This document shows positions 18,987-37,577 of a stretch of 37,687 nt of DNA, piece by piece. Position numbers and translations under genes: made by a program. The notes under the pieces are model-generated. The model was not told the origin of the DNA and searched no databases. It saw only the letters and a list, made by a program, of their open reading frames with translations. This DNA comes from an uncultured Erysipelotrichaceae bacterium. Lineage in GTDB: Bacteria > Bacillota_I > Bacilli_A > Erysipelotrichales > Erysipelotrichaceae. The stretch is taken from the NCBI GenBank assembly GCA_947649125.1, contig CANSQL010000024.1, forward strand, positions 1 to 37,687, read 5' to 3'. Each line of letters starts with the position of its first letter. Position 1 is the stretch's first letter.

Positions 18987-19079
18987 TAAAGTATTGCTAA
19001 AAGTGATATGGATTGGCAAATCTCCGTTTAGTTAGCTGAGAAAGAAATAGAAAAATTAGAATTATGAGAGGTGTTTAGT

Positions 19080-20126
19080 TTGATAAAAAAGAAAAAAGGA
19101 ATCAGTATTCGTTCGAGTGCAGCAGAGTATCTTACCTATGTTGCTTCTGTTGGGAGTCAAGAAAATAGCATAGAAATGCGTTATGAAGATGAAAATATAT
19201 GGTTAACACAGAAGATGCTGGCGACTCTTTATGGTGTTGATGTTCGCACAATAAATGATCATATTAAAAAAGTATTTGAAGATTCAGAGTTAGAAGAGCC
19301 GGCAACTATCCGAAAATTCCGGATAGTTCAAACTGAAGGAACTCGCCAAGTTCAAAGGGATATAAAACACTATAGTCTGCAAATGATTATTGCTGTTGGT
19401 TTTAAGGTAAATAATGAACGTGCAGTGCAATTTAGAAAATGGGCAAACAGTATTGTAAAAGACTATACAATTAAAGGGTGGGTAATAGATAATGATAGGC
19501 TTAAAAACAGTGGCTCTGTGCTTACAGTAGAGTATTTTGATCAGTTACTTGAACAGATACGTGAAATTCGTTTATCAGAACGTCGATTTTATCAAAAGAT
19601 TACAGATATATATGCTACTTCTTTGGATTATGATCGCACAGCAACTACGACTAAATGTTTTTTTGCAAAGGTTCAAAATAAAATGCATTATGCAGTACAT
19701 GGACATACTGCAGCAGAATTGATTTATGAACGAGCAAATTCTCAAAAGCCACATATGGGTCTTACAACTTGGGGGGATGCTCCAAAGGGAAAGGTTGTAA
19801 AAAGAGATGTAAGCATAGCTAAAAATTATCTTACTGAACAAGAAATACGTTCATTAGAGCGTATTGTATCTGCATACCTTGACTTAGCTGAAGATCGTGC
19901 AGAAAGACATATCCCGATGACTATGGAAGATTGGAGCAAGCGTTTAGATTTATTTTTAATGGCTGATGACCGTGAGATTCTCAAAGATGAAGGCAAAATA
20001 ACAGCAGAAATTGCAAAATCTAAAGCTGAAACTGAATTTGAAAAATATCGTATCATTCAAGATAAATTGTTTATATCTGATTATGATAGATATTTAATGG
20101 AATTAGAAGAAAACATCAAGGAATAG
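19080..20126 (+). CDS. RhuM-family protein (Virulence_RhuM domain)
   Basis: The 348-residue product matches RhuM proteins: the block IWLTQKMLATLYGVDVRTIN plus DHIKKVFEDSEL reads as an N-terminal DNA-binding-like domain. It is followed by ATIRKFRIVQTEG, YSLQMIIAVGFKVNNERAVQ and FRKWANSIVKDYTIKGWVID. RhuM was named for a Salmonella pathogenicity-island gene. Its biochemical role is unknown, and homologues are scattered in mobile and defence islands. The frame opens at GTG 19071, but GAGAGG (19066-19071) overlaps that codon, so TTG 19080 (8 nt downstream) is the better start. The gene is AT-rich against its surroundings and lies within an interruption of the engB-spoVID-valS order, which suggests horizontal gain. 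No promoter is certain. Confidence 0.85.
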   Translation: MIKKKKGISIRSSAAEYLTYVASVGSQENSIEMRYEDENIWLTQKMLATLYGVDVRTINDHIKKVFEDSELEEPATIRKFRIVQTEGTRQVQRDIKHYSLQMIIAVGFKVNNERAVQFRKWANSIVKDYTIKGWVIDNDRLKNSGSVLTVEYFDQLLEQIREIRLSERRFYQKITDIYATSLDYDRTATTTKCFFAKVQNKMHYAVHGHTAAELIYERANSQKPHMGLTTWGDAPKGKVVKRDVSIAKNYLTEQEIRSLERIVSAYLDLAEDRAERHIPMTMEDWSKRLDLFLMADDREILKDEGKITAEIAKSKAETEFEKYRIIQDKLFISDYDRYLMELEENIKE

Positions 20127-20450: not shown

Positions 20451-21149
20451 ATGAAAAAAATGAAAATCGAAAAGCAACTGATTTTTGCCGATCAGGTACA
20501 ACAGGTAAACACACTGAAAGTCAGCGAACATTTGAACTATCGTCATGAGGAAGACGGTATAAGAGCGATGGGACCGCTCTATATTGAAGGTGAGTATACA
20601 GGTAGTGACGGTATCGAAAAATTTCGTGAAGCACTTGAAATGGATGTGTTGGCACCGAATCATAAGCTGAGTGATGAACCGTTTTCCTTGATGATTGAGG
20701 ATTACCAGGCAAAAGCCAATCAAGATACGATTCAAGTAAGCATTACACTGGCAATACAGGGCTTAAACGATGATAAAAAAGAAGCGGCAGCACCGATCGC
20801 TAAAGAAGTACCGATGCCAAGCAAGGTACAGAAGGAAATGAAGCAGGCAGAGCCTGTAACAGCACCGCAAGATTCAGTATTGGCACAGGAAGTGATGCAA
20901 TCGGAGAGCGAGGCCGTACAGAGCGAAGATACGCAACAAGAAAGTACAGATACCGTCGTTGATGATTTCAATGATTTATTTGCGGACAGTGAAAGCACCT
21001 ATACGAGCTATCGCATCATTGTCGCAAAGCCAAACGATACGTATGCGTCAATAGCCGATCGCTGTGAGGTAGATGAACAACAGTTGAGGGATACGAATAA
21101 GAATAAAGAAATCAGTGCCAAAACACCGGTGATTCTGCCGTTTCAATAA
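20451..21149 (+). CDS. SpoVID-like LysM protein
   Basis: The 232-residue protein has three parts. Residues 1-105 form a beta-rich domain (FADQVQQVNTLKVSEHL, GPLYIEGEYTG, IQVSITLAIQG) like the N-terminal domain of the spore-coat morphogen SpoVID. Residues 106-180 are a Gln/Glu/Ser-rich linker. Residues 186-232 are a LysM-like module (YRIIVAKPNDTYASIADRCE, ending VILPFQ). In Bacillus, spoVID lies between the engB-hem cluster and valS, the same place as here, which supports the match. In SpoVID the C-terminal LysM holds coat proteins at the forespore surface. No signal peptide is seen, as expected for a mother-cell protein. Whether this organism sporulates cannot be told from the window. Confidence 0.65.
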   Translation: MKKMKIEKQLIFADQVQQVNTLKVSEHLNYRHEEDGIRAMGPLYIEGEYTGSDGIEKFREALEMDVLAPNHKLSDEPFSLMIEDYQAKANQDTIQVSITLAIQGLNDDKKEAAAPIAKEVPMPSKVQKEMKQAEPVTAPQDSVLAQEVMQSESEAVQSEDTQQESTDTVVDDFNDLFADSESTYTSYRIIVAKPNDTYASIADRCEVDEQQLRDTNKNKEISAKTPVILPFQ

Positions 21150-26103: not shown

Positions 26104-26133
26104 TTGTGATGAGCCGCATATCGGTGGTATACT
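26104..26133 (+). promoter_or_regulatory. Promoter for the two G3E GTPase genes
   Basis: TTGTGA (26104-26109), an 18-nt spacer and an extended -10 (TGG TATACT, hexamer 26128-26133) lie 33 nt before ATG 26166. I looked for a Zur-type palindrome over or near it and did not find one. Confidence 0.6.
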
Positions 26134-26165: not shown

Positions 26166-27230
26166 ATGACGAAGATAGATATTATTTCCGGCTTTTTAGG
26201 CGCAGGGAAAACGACCTTGATCCGCAAGCTGATTCAAGAGGCTTATCAAAATGAAAAGCTGGTATTGATTGAAAATGAATTCGGTGAGATTGGAATTGAC
26301 GGCGGTTTTTTAAAGGATGCGGGAATTGCGGTCAAAGAGATGAACAGCGGTTGTATTTGTTGTTCCTTGGTCGGCGATTTTGCGCAGAGTCTGACGATGG
26401 TCATGGATGAATATGCACCGGATCGCATTATCATTGAACCAAGCGGTGTCGGCAAGTTGTCTGATGTGATTCAAGCCGTCACAAAGCTGAATGATGAAAG
26501 AATGTCGTTGAATTCTTATACTACGGTAGCCGATGCGAAAAAGGTAAAAACCTACAGTAAGAATTTCGGTGAATTCTTTAATAATCAAATTGCTTATGCG
26601 AAAACGATTGTGTTAAGCAGAACACAGTTGCTTTCTCAAGAAAAGCTGAATGAGGTCGTATCGCTGTTACAGAAGCAAAATCCTAAGGCAAGCTTGATTG
26701 TAACGCCTTGGGAGGAGTTAGACGGTGAGAAAATACTGAATACTATGGAGCACGGTGATGATATGGCAAGTGAGCTTTTAGCAGAAATGAATCATCATCA
26801 CGATGAGCATTGTTGCTGCGAACATGATCATCATGAAGGACATTGTTCCCATGAGCATCATCACGATCACGATCACGAGCACTGTTCCCATGAGCATCAT
26901 CATGAGCATGAGGATTGCGGTTGTCATCACCACCATCACCATGCCGATGAGGTATTCACAAGCTGGGGCAGAGAGACCGCCAAGCTTTATTCAAAGAACG
27001 AAATCCAAGCGATACTGACCGCTCTTTGTGAGGAAGCTATCTATGGCAAGGTGCTTCGCGCCAAGGGGATGCTGAGGGGTGAGCACACATGGTATTATTT
27101 TGATATGGTACCGCAGGAATATGAGCTTCGGGAAGGGACTCAGGAAACGATCGGAAAGCTCTGCGTCATCGGCTCGGATTTGAATGAAGAAGCATTGGAA
27201 AAGCTGTTTGGATTGGTGAGTGAAAGGTAA
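26166..27230 (+). CDS. G3E (CobW/COG0523) GTPase with His-rich metal-binding insert
   Basis: Proteins of this family use GTP to hand metal ions, often zinc, to target enzymes. The 354-residue product has GFLGAGKTT (Walker A, residues 9-17), ENEFGEIGID, the metal-binding CICC motif (residues 63-66), IIEPSGVG, and a CobW C-terminal domain from about residue 262. Between the domains, residues 210-259 hold about 26 His and 7 Cys, a strong Zn/Ni/Co binding stretch. AGGAGG precedes the ATG. The stop shares one base with the next gene, also a G3E GTPase, so the pair form an operon. The metal is not fixed by sequence; zinc is the best guess. Confidence 0.92.
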   Translation: MTKIDIISGFLGAGKTTLIRKLIQEAYQNEKLVLIENEFGEIGIDGGFLKDAGIAVKEMNSGCICCSLVGDFAQSLTMVMDEYAPDRIIIEPSGVGKLSDVIQAVTKLNDERMSLNSYTTVADAKKVKTYSKNFGEFFNNQIAYAKTIVLSRTQLLSQEKLNEVVSLLQKQNPKASLIVTPWEELDGEKILNTMEHGDDMASELLAEMNHHHDEHCCCEHDHHEGHCSHEHHHDHDHEHCSHEHHHEHEDCGCHHHHHHADEVFTSWGRETAKLYSKNEIQAILTALCEEAIYGKVLRAKGMLRGEHTWYYFDMVPQEYELREGTQETIGKLCVIGSDLNEEALEKLFGLVSER

Positions 27231-28168
27231 TGAATGTACCTGTATATCTGTTTACCGGTTTTTTAGACAGCGGTAAAAGTACCTTTATTCAAGATACGCT
27301 TCGCGATCCGCAGTTTCATAACCGAGAAAAAACCTTACTGCTGCTTTGTGAGGAGGGAGAAGTCGAGTTTGATCCGGTCGTTATGGCCGATTATCAAGTA
27401 GATATCGTATCAATCGAAAATGAAAGCGATTTAACCTATGAATATTTATGTGAGCTGCATAAGCGCTATCAACCGCAGCGAGTCATGATTGAATTCAACG
27501 GCATGTGGAGTGTTACCGCTTTTTTAGATGTGGAATATCCGTTGGAATGGCTGTTGGTTCAAATCATGACAACGATTGATGCATCCAGCTTTGCCTTATA
27601 TATGAATAATATGCGTTCGCTGATTTATGAACAGGCGGTACACAGTGAGCTTATTATCTTTAATCGCTGTGATGATTCCACGAAGAAAAGCTTTCTGCGC
27701 GGTAATATCAAGGCAATCAATAAGGGGGCACAAATCATTTATGAATCCGTTGACGGTAACATCAATCAGTTGGCTGATGATATTCTTCCGTTTGATAAAG
27801 AAGCCGATATGATAACGATACAGGCGGATGATTACGGATTGTGGTATATGGATATTATGGAAAAGCCGCAGAGCTATGAGGGCAAAAGCGTTATCTTTGA
27901 AGCACAGGTAGTCGAGGTCGATCATGAGCACCGGGATATATTTTTAATCGGTCGTGAGGCAATGGTATGCTGCGCTGAGGATATTCAAATGATTGGCTTT
28001 ATCGTACATTATGCGAAAAGCATGGAACTGAAAAGCGGACAATGGCTTTCATTACGGGCCAAGGTCCATTGTGAATATGATAAGCAATATGACGGCATCG
28101 TTCCGGTACTTTATTGTGAATCGCTTACTGACGCTCAACGTATCGAGGACTATGTTACATTCAGTTAA
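27230..28168 (+). CDS. G3E GTPase domain fused to a YcgQ/DUF1980-type domain
   Basis: The N-terminal half is a CobW-like GTPase (Walker A GFLDSGKST at residues 10-18, IEFNG in place of IEPSG, and NRCD at 145-148 as the G4-like motif). It lacks the CxCC metal motif. The C-terminal part (about residues 215-312: GKSVIFEAQVVEV, then REAMVCCAEDIQMIGFIV, then SGQWLSLRAKV and VPVLYCESL) looks like the C-terminal domain of YcgQ (DUF1980/TIGR03943), where a CC...DA...G signature is typical. YcgQ proteins pair with a YcgR permease in zinc-linked operons; no permease is seen here. The start overlaps the preceding stop (TAATG). A bidirectional terminator follows. Confidence 0.8.
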   Translation: MNVPVYLFTGFLDSGKSTFIQDTLRDPQFHNREKTLLLLCEEGEVEFDPVVMADYQVDIVSIENESDLTYEYLCELHKRYQPQRVMIEFNGMWSVTAFLDVEYPLEWLLVQIMTTIDASSFALYMNNMRSLIYEQAVHSELIIFNRCDDSTKKSFLRGNIKAINKGAQIIYESVDGNINQLADDILPFDKEADMITIQADDYGLWYMDIMEKPQSYEGKSVIFEAQVVEVDHEHRDIFLIGREAMVCCAEDIQMIGFIVHYAKSMELKSGQWLSLRAKVHCEYDKQYDGIVPVLYCESLTDAQRIEDYVTFS

Positions 28169-28175
28169 TTATATA

Positions 28176-28207
28176 AAAACAGAGCTTTTGTATCGGCTCT
28201 GTTTTTT
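28176..28207. terminator. Bidirectional terminator between convergent genes
   Basis: AAAACAGAGC (28176-28185) and GCTCTGTTTT (28196-28205) form a perfect 10-bp stem with A-tract and T-tract on the two sides. It can therefore serve both the GTPase operon (+) and the XRE gene (-). Confidence 0.9.
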
Positions 28208-34842: not shown

Positions 34843-35064
34843 ATGGATTATTTAATGTTAATATTAACAGCTATTGGTACGACTGCTACAGTAGTATCGG
34901 CAGTTATTACCATAAAAGCAAAAAATGAGACGAAAGATATATTAAAACAAATTAAGGAAGAAAAAAGTAGGAATATTAGAAATAGCGGAGATGTTCGTGT
35001 TACAAATAGTGGTAATAACTCTGGAGTATTGAGTGCTATTAATTCAGGAGATATACATAAATGA
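34843..35064 (+). CDS. Small membrane protein with C-terminal NSG repeat (candidate effector)
   Basis: The 73-residue protein has a transmembrane segment (about residues 3-24), a charged helical stretch (25-44, ETKDILKQIKEEKSRN) and an Asn-Ser-Gly repeat tail (47-73). The tail piece NSGNNSGVLSAINSGDI (55-71) aligns with residues 10-26 of the next gene's product. I know no named family. A short membrane protein with a signalling motif at its end, next to a sensor-like partner with the same motif, suggests a membrane-acting effector. That is an inference. A TGGAGGAT ribosome site precedes the ATG, and the gene overlaps the next by 4 nt (ATGA). It is AT-rich, as is the whole operon. Confidence 0.7.
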   Translation: MDYLMLILTAIGTTATVVSAVITIKAKNETKDILKQIKEEKSRNIRNSGDVRVTNSGNNSGVLSAINSGDIHK

Positions 35065-35654
35065 CAAAAAGCGAGTATAAAGTAGACAATAGTGGAGATA
35101 ATCAAGGAGTTATCGTAGGGCAGAATACAGGAACTATTAACCTTTCAATACAAAATGTCATAAAAATTCCCTCATTGATATCCACAGTAGTTCAGGCTTT
35201 AGGAATTGCGTGTGCCACAGAAGATATATCGCCAAAGATTGGAACTCCAAAGGAATATAAGCCAGATGAAAAAATAGAATATAATTGTGTAATAAGATAT
35301 AAATATGTAATCAAAGAGTTCGCAACATATTATTCTACTTGTGAAAGTTATTTAAATGCATATGATGATTCAAATATTAGGGGTAAAGCAAGAATATTAA
35401 AATGTGTTCATTTATGGTATTTGGATGCAAAGGGAGAAATTTTATCAGAGAACAAAGATACAGATAAAAGTGATATTGAAGTTATAAGGCAAAATTCAGA
35501 TAGGATAATAGATATGGTGAAAGATAGAATTTTTGAAACTGTTATAAACTCAAAGGAAATTGATTCTGTATATATAGAAAATCTGCACTTAGGAATAGCT
35601 TGTTTTACTTGTTTTTGTTTTATGGAGTGTAAAATATTGGAGAAACCGTTATGA
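35061..35654 (+). CDS. Putative third component of an ABC-3C system, N-terminal NSG motif
   Basis: The 197-residue protein starts with a Gly/Asn-rich motif, NSGDNQGVIVGQNTGTI (residues 10-26), as is common at the N-terminus of ABC-three-component partner proteins. The rest (about 35-197) is a mixed alpha/beta domain with IEYNCVIRYKYVIKEFATYY, LKCVHLWYLDAKGEIL and LHLGIACFTCFCFMECKILE. I see no catalytic signature. It lies directly between the membrane protein and the 84-residue middle component, with 4-nt overlaps on both sides. In the ABC-3C scheme this position is held by the protein carrying the conserved C-terminal domain that contacts the other components. That assignment rests on context and general look, not on a firm domain match. 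Confidence 0.65.
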   Translation: MTKSEYKVDNSGDNQGVIVGQNTGTINLSIQNVIKIPSLISTVVQALGIACATEDISPKIGTPKEYKPDEKIEYNCVIRYKYVIKEFATYYSTCESYLNAYDDSNIRGKARILKCVHLWYLDAKGEILSENKDTDKSDIEVIRQNSDRIIDMVKDRIFETVINSKEIDSVYIENLHLGIACFTCFCFMECKILEKPL

Positions 35655-35905
35655 TAATAAATATTGATAGAAAATCTAATTTTTCATTGTATTATTTGGG
35701 AAGCGTTTTACTTGCTATTTTAGAACAAGTGACTGTTATATCAATTGAAGATTTATTATCGGAAATGCAGAATCAATTAAAGGAAAAAGTTCATGTTGAT
35801 TTTATTTATTATGCATTAGATTGGTTGTTTTTATTGTCTGTTGTAAGAATAGAAGGAGGACATGTGTATTATGAAAATAAAAAAATTAATAGTACGCAAA
35901 ACTAA
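35651..35905 (+). CDS. ABC-three-component middle component (small winged-helix-like protein)
   Basis: The 84-residue protein (start IINIDRKSNFSLYYLGSVLL, then EQVTVISIEDLLSEM, then HVDFIYYALDWLFLLSVVRI) has the size, position and pattern of the small middle component of ABC-3C systems. These begin with a LxxSLLxIGxxLL-like helix and end with FxxALDFLFxLGxI. It is probably the adaptor between ATPase and effector. It overlaps the upstream gene by 4 nt and the ATPase gene by 35 nt. Confidence 0.75.
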   Translation: MIINIDRKSNFSLYYLGSVLLAILEQVTVISIEDLLSEMQNQLKEKVHVDFIYYALDWLFLLSVVRIEGGHVYYENKKINSTQN

Positions 35906-37577
35906 ACCTTCTGAGGTAGTAATTAGAGAGATTACTTTCAATGAAAAAGGGCTTAGCTTGATAGTAGATAATACTCCAGAAGATATTATCCAAAGTGGTA
36001 ATAGTGTAGGAAAGTCTACAGCAATTAAAATAATTGACTTGTGCTTAGGGGCAAGATCAGTACGTGAACTTTACTATGATTTTGACACAAGAAGTGAAAA
36101 TATAGAAGTAAAGGATTTTTTGAGTGAAAATAAAGTACAGGCAGAATTAATTTTATTAGATAAAAATAAAAATATTTATTCAATTAGAAGAGATCTGTTT
36201 CCACATGGGAAAAAGTATATTTTTGATGATGAATATAATAAAGATGAATTTGGAACTGAACTTAAAAAAATTATTTTTGGTTTGAGTGAACCAAGACCAA
36301 CTTTTAGGCAATTAATACCTAAATTTGTAAGGCTGGAAAATACTGCTGAAGATAGTATGATTAAGTTCTTACCAATGATGACAAGTAATGATGCCTATGA
36401 TGCGATATATTGTTTTTTGTATCAAATATATAGTGATAAATTGGTAAATCAAAAAAGTGAGATTTTGGAGAAACTTTTGGAGTGCCAAAAGACAGTTCAG
36501 GCATTAGAAAAAAGTAAAAGTATAACATCATTGAATTTATTAAAACAATCTCTTGAAATCATAAATTCTGATTTGAAAGATTTATATGATAAAAGACAGA
36601 AATTGTCTTATATGGATATATATCGCGATGAATTGGATACAAAGAGAAAACTTACATTGCGTATCAATGATTTACAAGAAAAAATGGAATTATTAGAATT
36701 TGAAATTGATAATATTGAAAAAAGTATTTTGAAACTATCTGAAGAAAAAAGGGATATTGATTTTGATACTTTAAGTGCTATTTATAATGAAGCAAAGAGT
36801 TATATTCCAGAGTTACACAAAAGCTTTGAAGATATGGTAAAATTTCATAACGTAATGATTCAGAATCGAATTGATTTTATACAGCAGCAATTGGAATCAA
36901 AACATGATTTGCTTGAGCGGTATTCGCAGCAGTTAGGAAAATTGCTTGAAGAAAAAGAAAAAGTTACTATAGATGTGTTGGATGAAGGACTTTTGGATGA
37001 ACTAAATATGTTAAATAAGAAAATAGAGGGATTATCTTTAAAAAAAGGAGAAATTCAACAATCTATTTATTTAATTGAAGAACAGGAGCAGATTCGTCAA
37101 AATCTTAATAAAGAACTTTTAGCTGTTGAAAAACAGATGGAGGATGAAGGGATAGAGGAAAAAGTAAAAAGATTTAATCAAATTTTTTCGGATTATTGTG
37201 ATAAATTATACGGAGAAAAATATTTACTGGCTTATAATGACAATTGGAAAGAAGAAAAAAAGTTCCCTGTTAGTATAGCTTCTCTTGGGGGAAAGATAGG
37301 AACAGGAAAGAAAAAAGCTGTTATTGTAGCATATGATTTGGCATATATGCAATACAGCATAGAGGTAGGGATGAAAGTTCCACAGTTTGTAATCCATGAT
37401 AAGATGGAGAATACACACATTAATCAAATTAAAACTATATTTGAAATTTGCAATAGGATTGAAGGGCAGTATATAATCCCTATATTGAGGGAACGGATTG
37501 ATAAAGTAGATCAACAATATATAGAGAGTTCAAAAGTTTTAGAATTAAGTTCTTCCGATAAGTTTTTTAGAATTTAG
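35871..37577 (+). CDS. DUF2326-type SMC/Rad50-like ABC ATPase (ABC-3C ATPase)
   Basis: The 568-residue protein is a split ABC ATPase with a coiled-coil middle. Walker A is GNSVGKST (residues 43-50), and coiled coil covers about 185-435. The C-terminal half has an ABC signature-like SIASLGGKIGTGKKKAVIVA (about 468-487) and PQFVIHDKMEN (504-514) at the Walker B position, typical of DUF2326 proteins. These ATPases are thought to sense foreign or damaged nucleic acid and release an effector. ATG 35862 is only 2 nt from AGGAGG (35854-35859), so ATG 35871 (11 nt) is the better start. A terminator follows. The AT-rich coding differs from the host core, which suggests horizontal gain. Confidence 0.88.
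   Translation: MKIKKLIVRKTKPSEVVIREITFNEKGLSLIVDNTPEDIIQSGNSVGKSTAIKIIDLCLGARSVRELYYDFDTRSENIEVKDFLSENKVQAELILLDKNKNIYSIRRDLFPHGKKYIFDDEYNKDEFGTELKKIIFGLSEPRPTFRQLIPKFVRLENTAEDSMIKFLPMMTSNDAYDAIYCFLYQIYSDKLVNQKSEILEKLLECQKTVQALEKSKSITSLNLLKQSLEIINSDLKDLYDKRQKLSYMDIYRDELDTKRKLTLRINDLQEKMELLEFEIDNIEKSILKLSEEKRDIDFDTLSAIYNEAKSYIPELHKSFEDMVKFHNVMIQNRIDFIQQQLESKHDLLERYSQQLGKLLEEKEKVTIDVLDEGLLDELNMLNKKIEGLSLKKGEIQQSIYLIEEQEQIRQNLNKELLAVEKQMEDEGIEEKVKRFNQIFSDYCDKLYGEKYLLAYNDNWKEEKKFPVSIASLGGKIGTGKKKAVIVAYDLAYMQYSIEVGMKVPQFVIHDKMENTHINQIKTIFEICNRIEGQYIIPILRERIDKVDQQYIESSKVLELSSSDKFFRI

Follow-up and report, generated by a model that had tools for sequence, protein, structure and literature searches.

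A CxCC-free G3E GTPase fused to a DUF1980_C domain and its CICC-bearing CobW partner, candidate subunits of a metallochaperone

Architecture of the two-gene unit

The stretch of DNA analysed here (the window, 37,687 nucleotides, from a gut bacterium) carries two adjoining GTPase genes on the forward strand. The first, at 26166..27230, encodes a 354-residue protein, hereafter the partner, a COG0523/CobW GTPase with a cobW nucleotide-binding domain (E 1.6e-39) and CobW_C. The P-loop reads GFLGAGKT, EPSG is present, a CICC motif lies at 26352-26363, and SRTQ (26616-26627) replaces NKxD. A His/Cys-rich stretch, probably a metal store, separates the GTPase and C-terminal domains (26793..26945). Both the CICC and the His-rich store had been attributed to this upstream gene in the original prediction, and both are indeed encoded there.

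The second gene (27230..28168, also forward) overlaps the partner stop by one base (TAATG) and encodes a fusion protein of 312 residues. Its residues 4-170 (27239..27739) match the cobW nucleotide-binding domain (PF02492, E 4.3e-11), and residues 186-309 (27785..28156) match DUF1980_C (PF21537, E 7.7e-19), scoring 68.2 bits where the cut-off is 25.9. This confirms that DUF1980_C, the soluble C-terminal domain of YcgQ/TIGR03943, is here joined to a G3E/CobW GTPase domain, as had been proposed. The DUF1980-type region had been placed at residues 215-312; searched alone this segment still matches DUF1980_C at 1e-13, but the domain begins around residue 186. The proposed profile check was likewise borne out in part, with DUF1980_C above its cut-off, whereas TIGR03943 (E 3.5e-14, 52.7 bits) does not reach its full-length cut-off of 88.8, as expected for a protein that holds a partial domain. 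CobW_C yielded no match in a Pfam search of the 312-residue protein, so the C-terminus is not simply the ordinary CobW C-terminal domain. The N-terminal membrane domain of DUF1980 was not matched either, and the likeness to YcgQ is confined to the soluble C-terminal domain.

The GTPase part of the fusion displays the P-loop GFLDSGKS, a switch I CEEGE, a Walker B EFNG and NRCD at the G4 position, and CxCC is absent from the sequence; retention of the P-loop together with loss of CxCC thus agrees with the original prediction. Within DUF1980_C, the segment GREAMVCCAED (G241-D251, 27950..27982) holds positions that are conserved across 133 fusions. Both PF02492 and PF21537 (the latter at E 0.001 or better) are recovered in 40 of 40 aligned relatives, and the fusion is therefore no sequencing or frameshift artefact.

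An extended -10 promoter-like element, TGgTATACT (26125..26133, forward strand), lies about 30 bp 5' of the partner start, and a hairpin resembling an intrinsic terminator (aaacagagc...gctctgttt followed by a T run; 28177..28207, forward strand) closes the pair. Flanked in this manner, partner and fusion look like one self-contained transcription unit. The pattern TG.TATA[AC]T recurs in 37 of the 118 upstream regions of paired loci. In the same 118 regions we found neither a shared dyad nor known Zur, AdcR or Fur boxes, the operator of the genus being possibly a different one; constitutive expression is therefore as likely as zinc control.

A full-length model of the fusion reached a mean pLDDT of 88.8 and a pTM of 0.60, so that each domain is credible while their relative placement is not. 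By fold, the N-terminal domain comes closest to HypB (Z 14.4) and YjiA (Z 13.8), with other SIMIBI GTPases next, among them ones that work as dimers. In the model DUF1980_C has five long strands (220-230, 237-245, 252-260, 272-284 and 289-301), with the CC pair and the Asp in the loop between the second and the third. Foldseek, at lower significance, returned OB-fold proteins, SSB and a CST chain among them; jointly, the strands and these matches suggest an OB-like domain. Sequence search recovered no solved relative of DUF1980_C, and short WW- and PDZ-domain matches (E 0.01-0.7) were discarded as chance-like.

Distribution, pairing and invariant residues

DUF1980_C was matched in 103 of 196 genomes of the same family, nearly always within open frames of about 305-345 residues, equivalent to the fusion in size, and in 41 of 295 genomes of a phylum-wide sample. 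Among 84,980 species genomes, a scan gave at least 580 confirmed relatives; among the matches listed are members of Erysipelotrichaceae, Lachnospiraceae and Oscillospiraceae, and the best 80 of the at least 580 also include neighbouring groups. The two-gene unit is widespread, and apparently unstudied. In one example from a public record (Vescimonas fastidiosa), the genes bear no more than the labels 'CobW family GTP-binding protein' and, for the second, 'GTP-binding protein'. A literature search that did not extend to the review of COG0523 by Edmonds et al. (2021), where an earlier description is possible, found nothing joining DUF1980, TIGR03943 or UPF0703 with COG0523.

A CICC-bearing, His-rich partner lies directly upstream on the same strand in 118 of 133 fusion loci, in most cases overlapping the fusion gene or lying no more than tens of bases from it, and in two more (L187 and L193), where the P-loop is spelled differently, it was recognised by profile. 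In 12 of the 13 remaining loci the stretch or contig stops near or inside the place of the partner. Conversely, a family-wide partner search detected four genomes (G086, G146, G098 and G118) with a strong partner match and no DUF1980_C match, each with the match close to a contig end; the hit in a fifth, G049, turned out to be an ordinary CobW. Apart from the partner there is no constant neighbour, the next-commonest cluster occurring in 16 loci, and none in the loci compared that could name a client. The pair consequently appears self-contained.

It is conceivable that the two proteins act separately, as chaperones for different clients that are co-transcribed as both serve metal homeostasis. 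The pairing described here is one of genes, and a single intact fusion locus (L200:4986-5942) has no adjacent CICC partner, the fusion there coming after two ORFs, one rpoC-like (1232 aa) and one unrelated (405 aa). Yet near-complete direct pairing over many genera, often with a one-base overlap and with no other shared neighbour, renders separate action rather improbable.

Thirteen positions are invariant in all 133 fusions: G10, G15, K16, E41, G43, E88, N90, N164, Y216, R242, C247, C248 and D251. G241 is kept in 132 and D208 in 130, and the fusions accordingly share a GR-x4-CC-x2-D segment as well as ExG and ExN. CxCC occurs in none of the 133, anywhere in the sequence. On the other side, CICC and EPSG are found in 118 of 118 partners, ExxG thereby being represented, and the His count per partner ranges from 17 to 66. 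All COG0523 proteins contain CxCC, and some contain [ST]KxD (PMC7895991); judged by its sequence, the fusion is G3E-like yet outside COG0523 by this definition.

The G4 motif is more variable. Fusions have NR in 127 of 133 cases, with diverse residues after it and Asp at the fourth place in 66, while partners have Ser first in nearly all of the 118 and mostly Gln or Asp last (SRTQ in 64, SRTD in 12; SRTQ or SRSQ in 77). Complementary loss of the G4 Asp was considered as a proof of a heterodimer; suggestive on few sequences, it failed on the full set, where 46 of 118 pairs have the Asp in neither subunit and the association lacks significance (p 0.08). A neat complementary split of the GTPase motifs is hence not supported, and the nucleotide specificity of the pair is uncertain.

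These motifs also bear on whether the fusion, rather than handling metal as a chaperone, binds nucleotide in order to regulate or activate the partner; it would then be a pseudo-chaperone whose DUF1980_C uses its vicinal cysteines to sense metal or redox state. The uniform loss of CxCC, the alteration of Walker B to E-x-N-G, the G4 Asp in just half of the fusions (66/133) and a CC pair that could form a disulfide are all congruent with such a role. Against this, the P-loop Lys and the switch ExG are invariant, as in a working nucleotide site, and we regard the regulator explanation as unlikely, though worth keeping in mind.

Permease association and zinc context

In B. subtilis and group A Streptococcus, the YcgQ/YcgR homologues ScfB/ScfA are regarded as belonging together, and in the latter they are important for fitness, with a biochemical role that is unknown (PMC5584981). 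The fusion has the C-terminal DUF1980_C with GR..M.CC..D in common with YcgQ/TIGR03943, the partner of the YcgR (UPF0718/ArsP_1) permease, but differs by being fused to a GTPase, by lacking a match to the N-terminal membrane domain and by the lack of a permease match in the genomes searched in the genus. The original prediction implied coupling to a YcgR-type permease, and the pairing of ScfB with ScfA would favour a system that passes metal to or from such a protein. ArsP_1 (PF03773, the YcgR family) is however not matched in any of seven genomes searched in the genus, the source genome included, and in the family it is present in 21 of 103 genomes with DUF1980_C versus 44 of 93 without, so that about 80% of the former have none. 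Where both were seen on one contig, they are some 18 kb or more apart. It follows that the fusion does not work through the permease, an explanation which is by now strongly disfavoured and which we hold to be very improbable.

Another context is more informative. Five related genomes (L111-L114 and L229) encode a DUF1980_C lipoprotein, its CC pair lying in GPGCCGNDG or a similar sequence, within a znuA-ABC-znuB operon, at L111:4578-5123, L112:5493-6038, L113:5089-5631 and L114:4721-5248, and on the reverse strand in L229. Pfam confirmed the genes of the operon, which specify ZnuA, an ABC ATPase and an ABC-3 permease, together with the Fur-type regulator that stands in front in L111. This Erysipelotrichaceae lipoprotein has the same Pfam domain as the fusion, but is secreted, sits in a zinc-uptake context and has no GTPase domain. 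The zinc association originally put forward for the domain is thereby upheld, and the lipoprotein form may serve as one independent support, drawn from gene context, for the zinc link of DUF1980_C. It also favours metal over redox, counting further against the regulator explanation. That DUF1980_C is met with on either side of the cell membrane, outside as part of a zinc-uptake operon and inside as part of a GTPase, would better suit a metal-binding or docking module than an enzyme. In its own right, the GPGCC-bearing lipoprotein is possibly a new accessory component of zinc uptake. The genome that harbours the window (98.7% complete) has no match to ABC-3 (ZnuB type) or ZIP and a single Fur-family regulator.

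A candidate two-subunit metallochaperone

Descriptions of the CobW-family GTPases present them as chaperones of a single chain, with CxCC as the defining motif, and their known clients are few. The partner looks like an ordinary member of this family, having CxCC, a His-rich stretch and CobW_C; the fusion has the G3E nucleotide-binding domain in common with YjiA, ZagA, ZigA, CobW and ZNG1, and departs from them in having neither CxCC (0/133) nor CobW_C. Other SIMIBI GTPases, such as SRP54-FtsY and HypB/UreG, act as hetero- or homodimers. Their GTPase-domain fold is like that of the fusion (Z 11-14), while no client or accessory domains are in common, and a dimer of fusion and partner is our proposal.

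We give roughly even chances to the reading that the products of the two genes are subunits of a single metallochaperone, nucleotide-driven and of the G3E (SIMIBI) type, with zinc as the most likely metal. Several lines of evidence point this way: direct and often overlapping adjacency (118/133 loci, plus the two found by profile), the contig-end position of the match in the partner-only genomes, the constancy of K16, E41, G43, E88, N90, R242, C247, C248 and D251 in 133 fusions devoid of CxCC, and that of CICC and EPSG in the partners. Moreover, the modelled N-terminal domain of the fusion has HypB and YjiA as its best fold matches, with dimeric SIMIBI GTPases among the matches, and a DUF1980_C lipoprotein resides in the znu operon, while no other neighbour of the pair is conserved. 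Finally, COG0523 proteins bind metal at CxCC together with nucleotide (PMC7895991). The two-subunit reading is weakened by the intact L200 locus, by the G4 statistics and by the upstream regions, where the missing Zur, AdcR or Fur operator leaves zinc-starvation control of the operon conjectural.

In the mechanism that we infer, partner and fusion would form a heteromer, in which the partner gathers metal, presumably zinc, in its His-rich stretch and loads it onto the CxCC beside its nucleotide. The CxCC-less fusion subunit would bind nucleotide on its own P-loop, forming a second nucleotide site, and the OB-like DUF1980_C, with GR-x4-CC-x2-D, could serve as an acceptor or as a docking module for the client, taking over or gating the transferred metal. 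Hydrolysis may then separate or re-arm the two proteins. The original idea of a 'YcgQ-type step' working jointly with GTP-driven delivery is still conjectural.

A more specific form of the two-subunit reading is put forward more tentatively, at somewhat less than even chances: an obligate hetero-oligomeric G3E metallochaperone, with the donor site (CxCC and His store) on one of two co-transcribed subunits and the acceptor or docking site (the CC-D of DUF1980_C) on the other. The fusion would then represent a CxCC-free CobW branch with a mechanism of its own, widespread in gut Firmicutes. A very common CxCC-free CobW member, tied to a CxCC partner and bearing the YcgQ domain, could allow donor, acceptor and nucleotide steps to be separated. 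The fusion also places DUF1980, of unknown role in YcgQ/ScfB, in a zinc context and in a soluble protein that is easy to purify.

Elsewhere in the window, a RhuM-family protein (PF13310; PADLOC candidate PDC-S05) is encoded amid housekeeping genes at 19071-20126, and a SPOCS/SpoVID-N spore-coat type domain (PF20918, E 8e-7) at 20451-21149 gives a hint of spore-making. At the end of the window (35061-37577), a 197-aa ORF with no Pfam match is followed by a DUF2326 protein similar to two components of candidate defence systems, PDC-M68B and LmuB.
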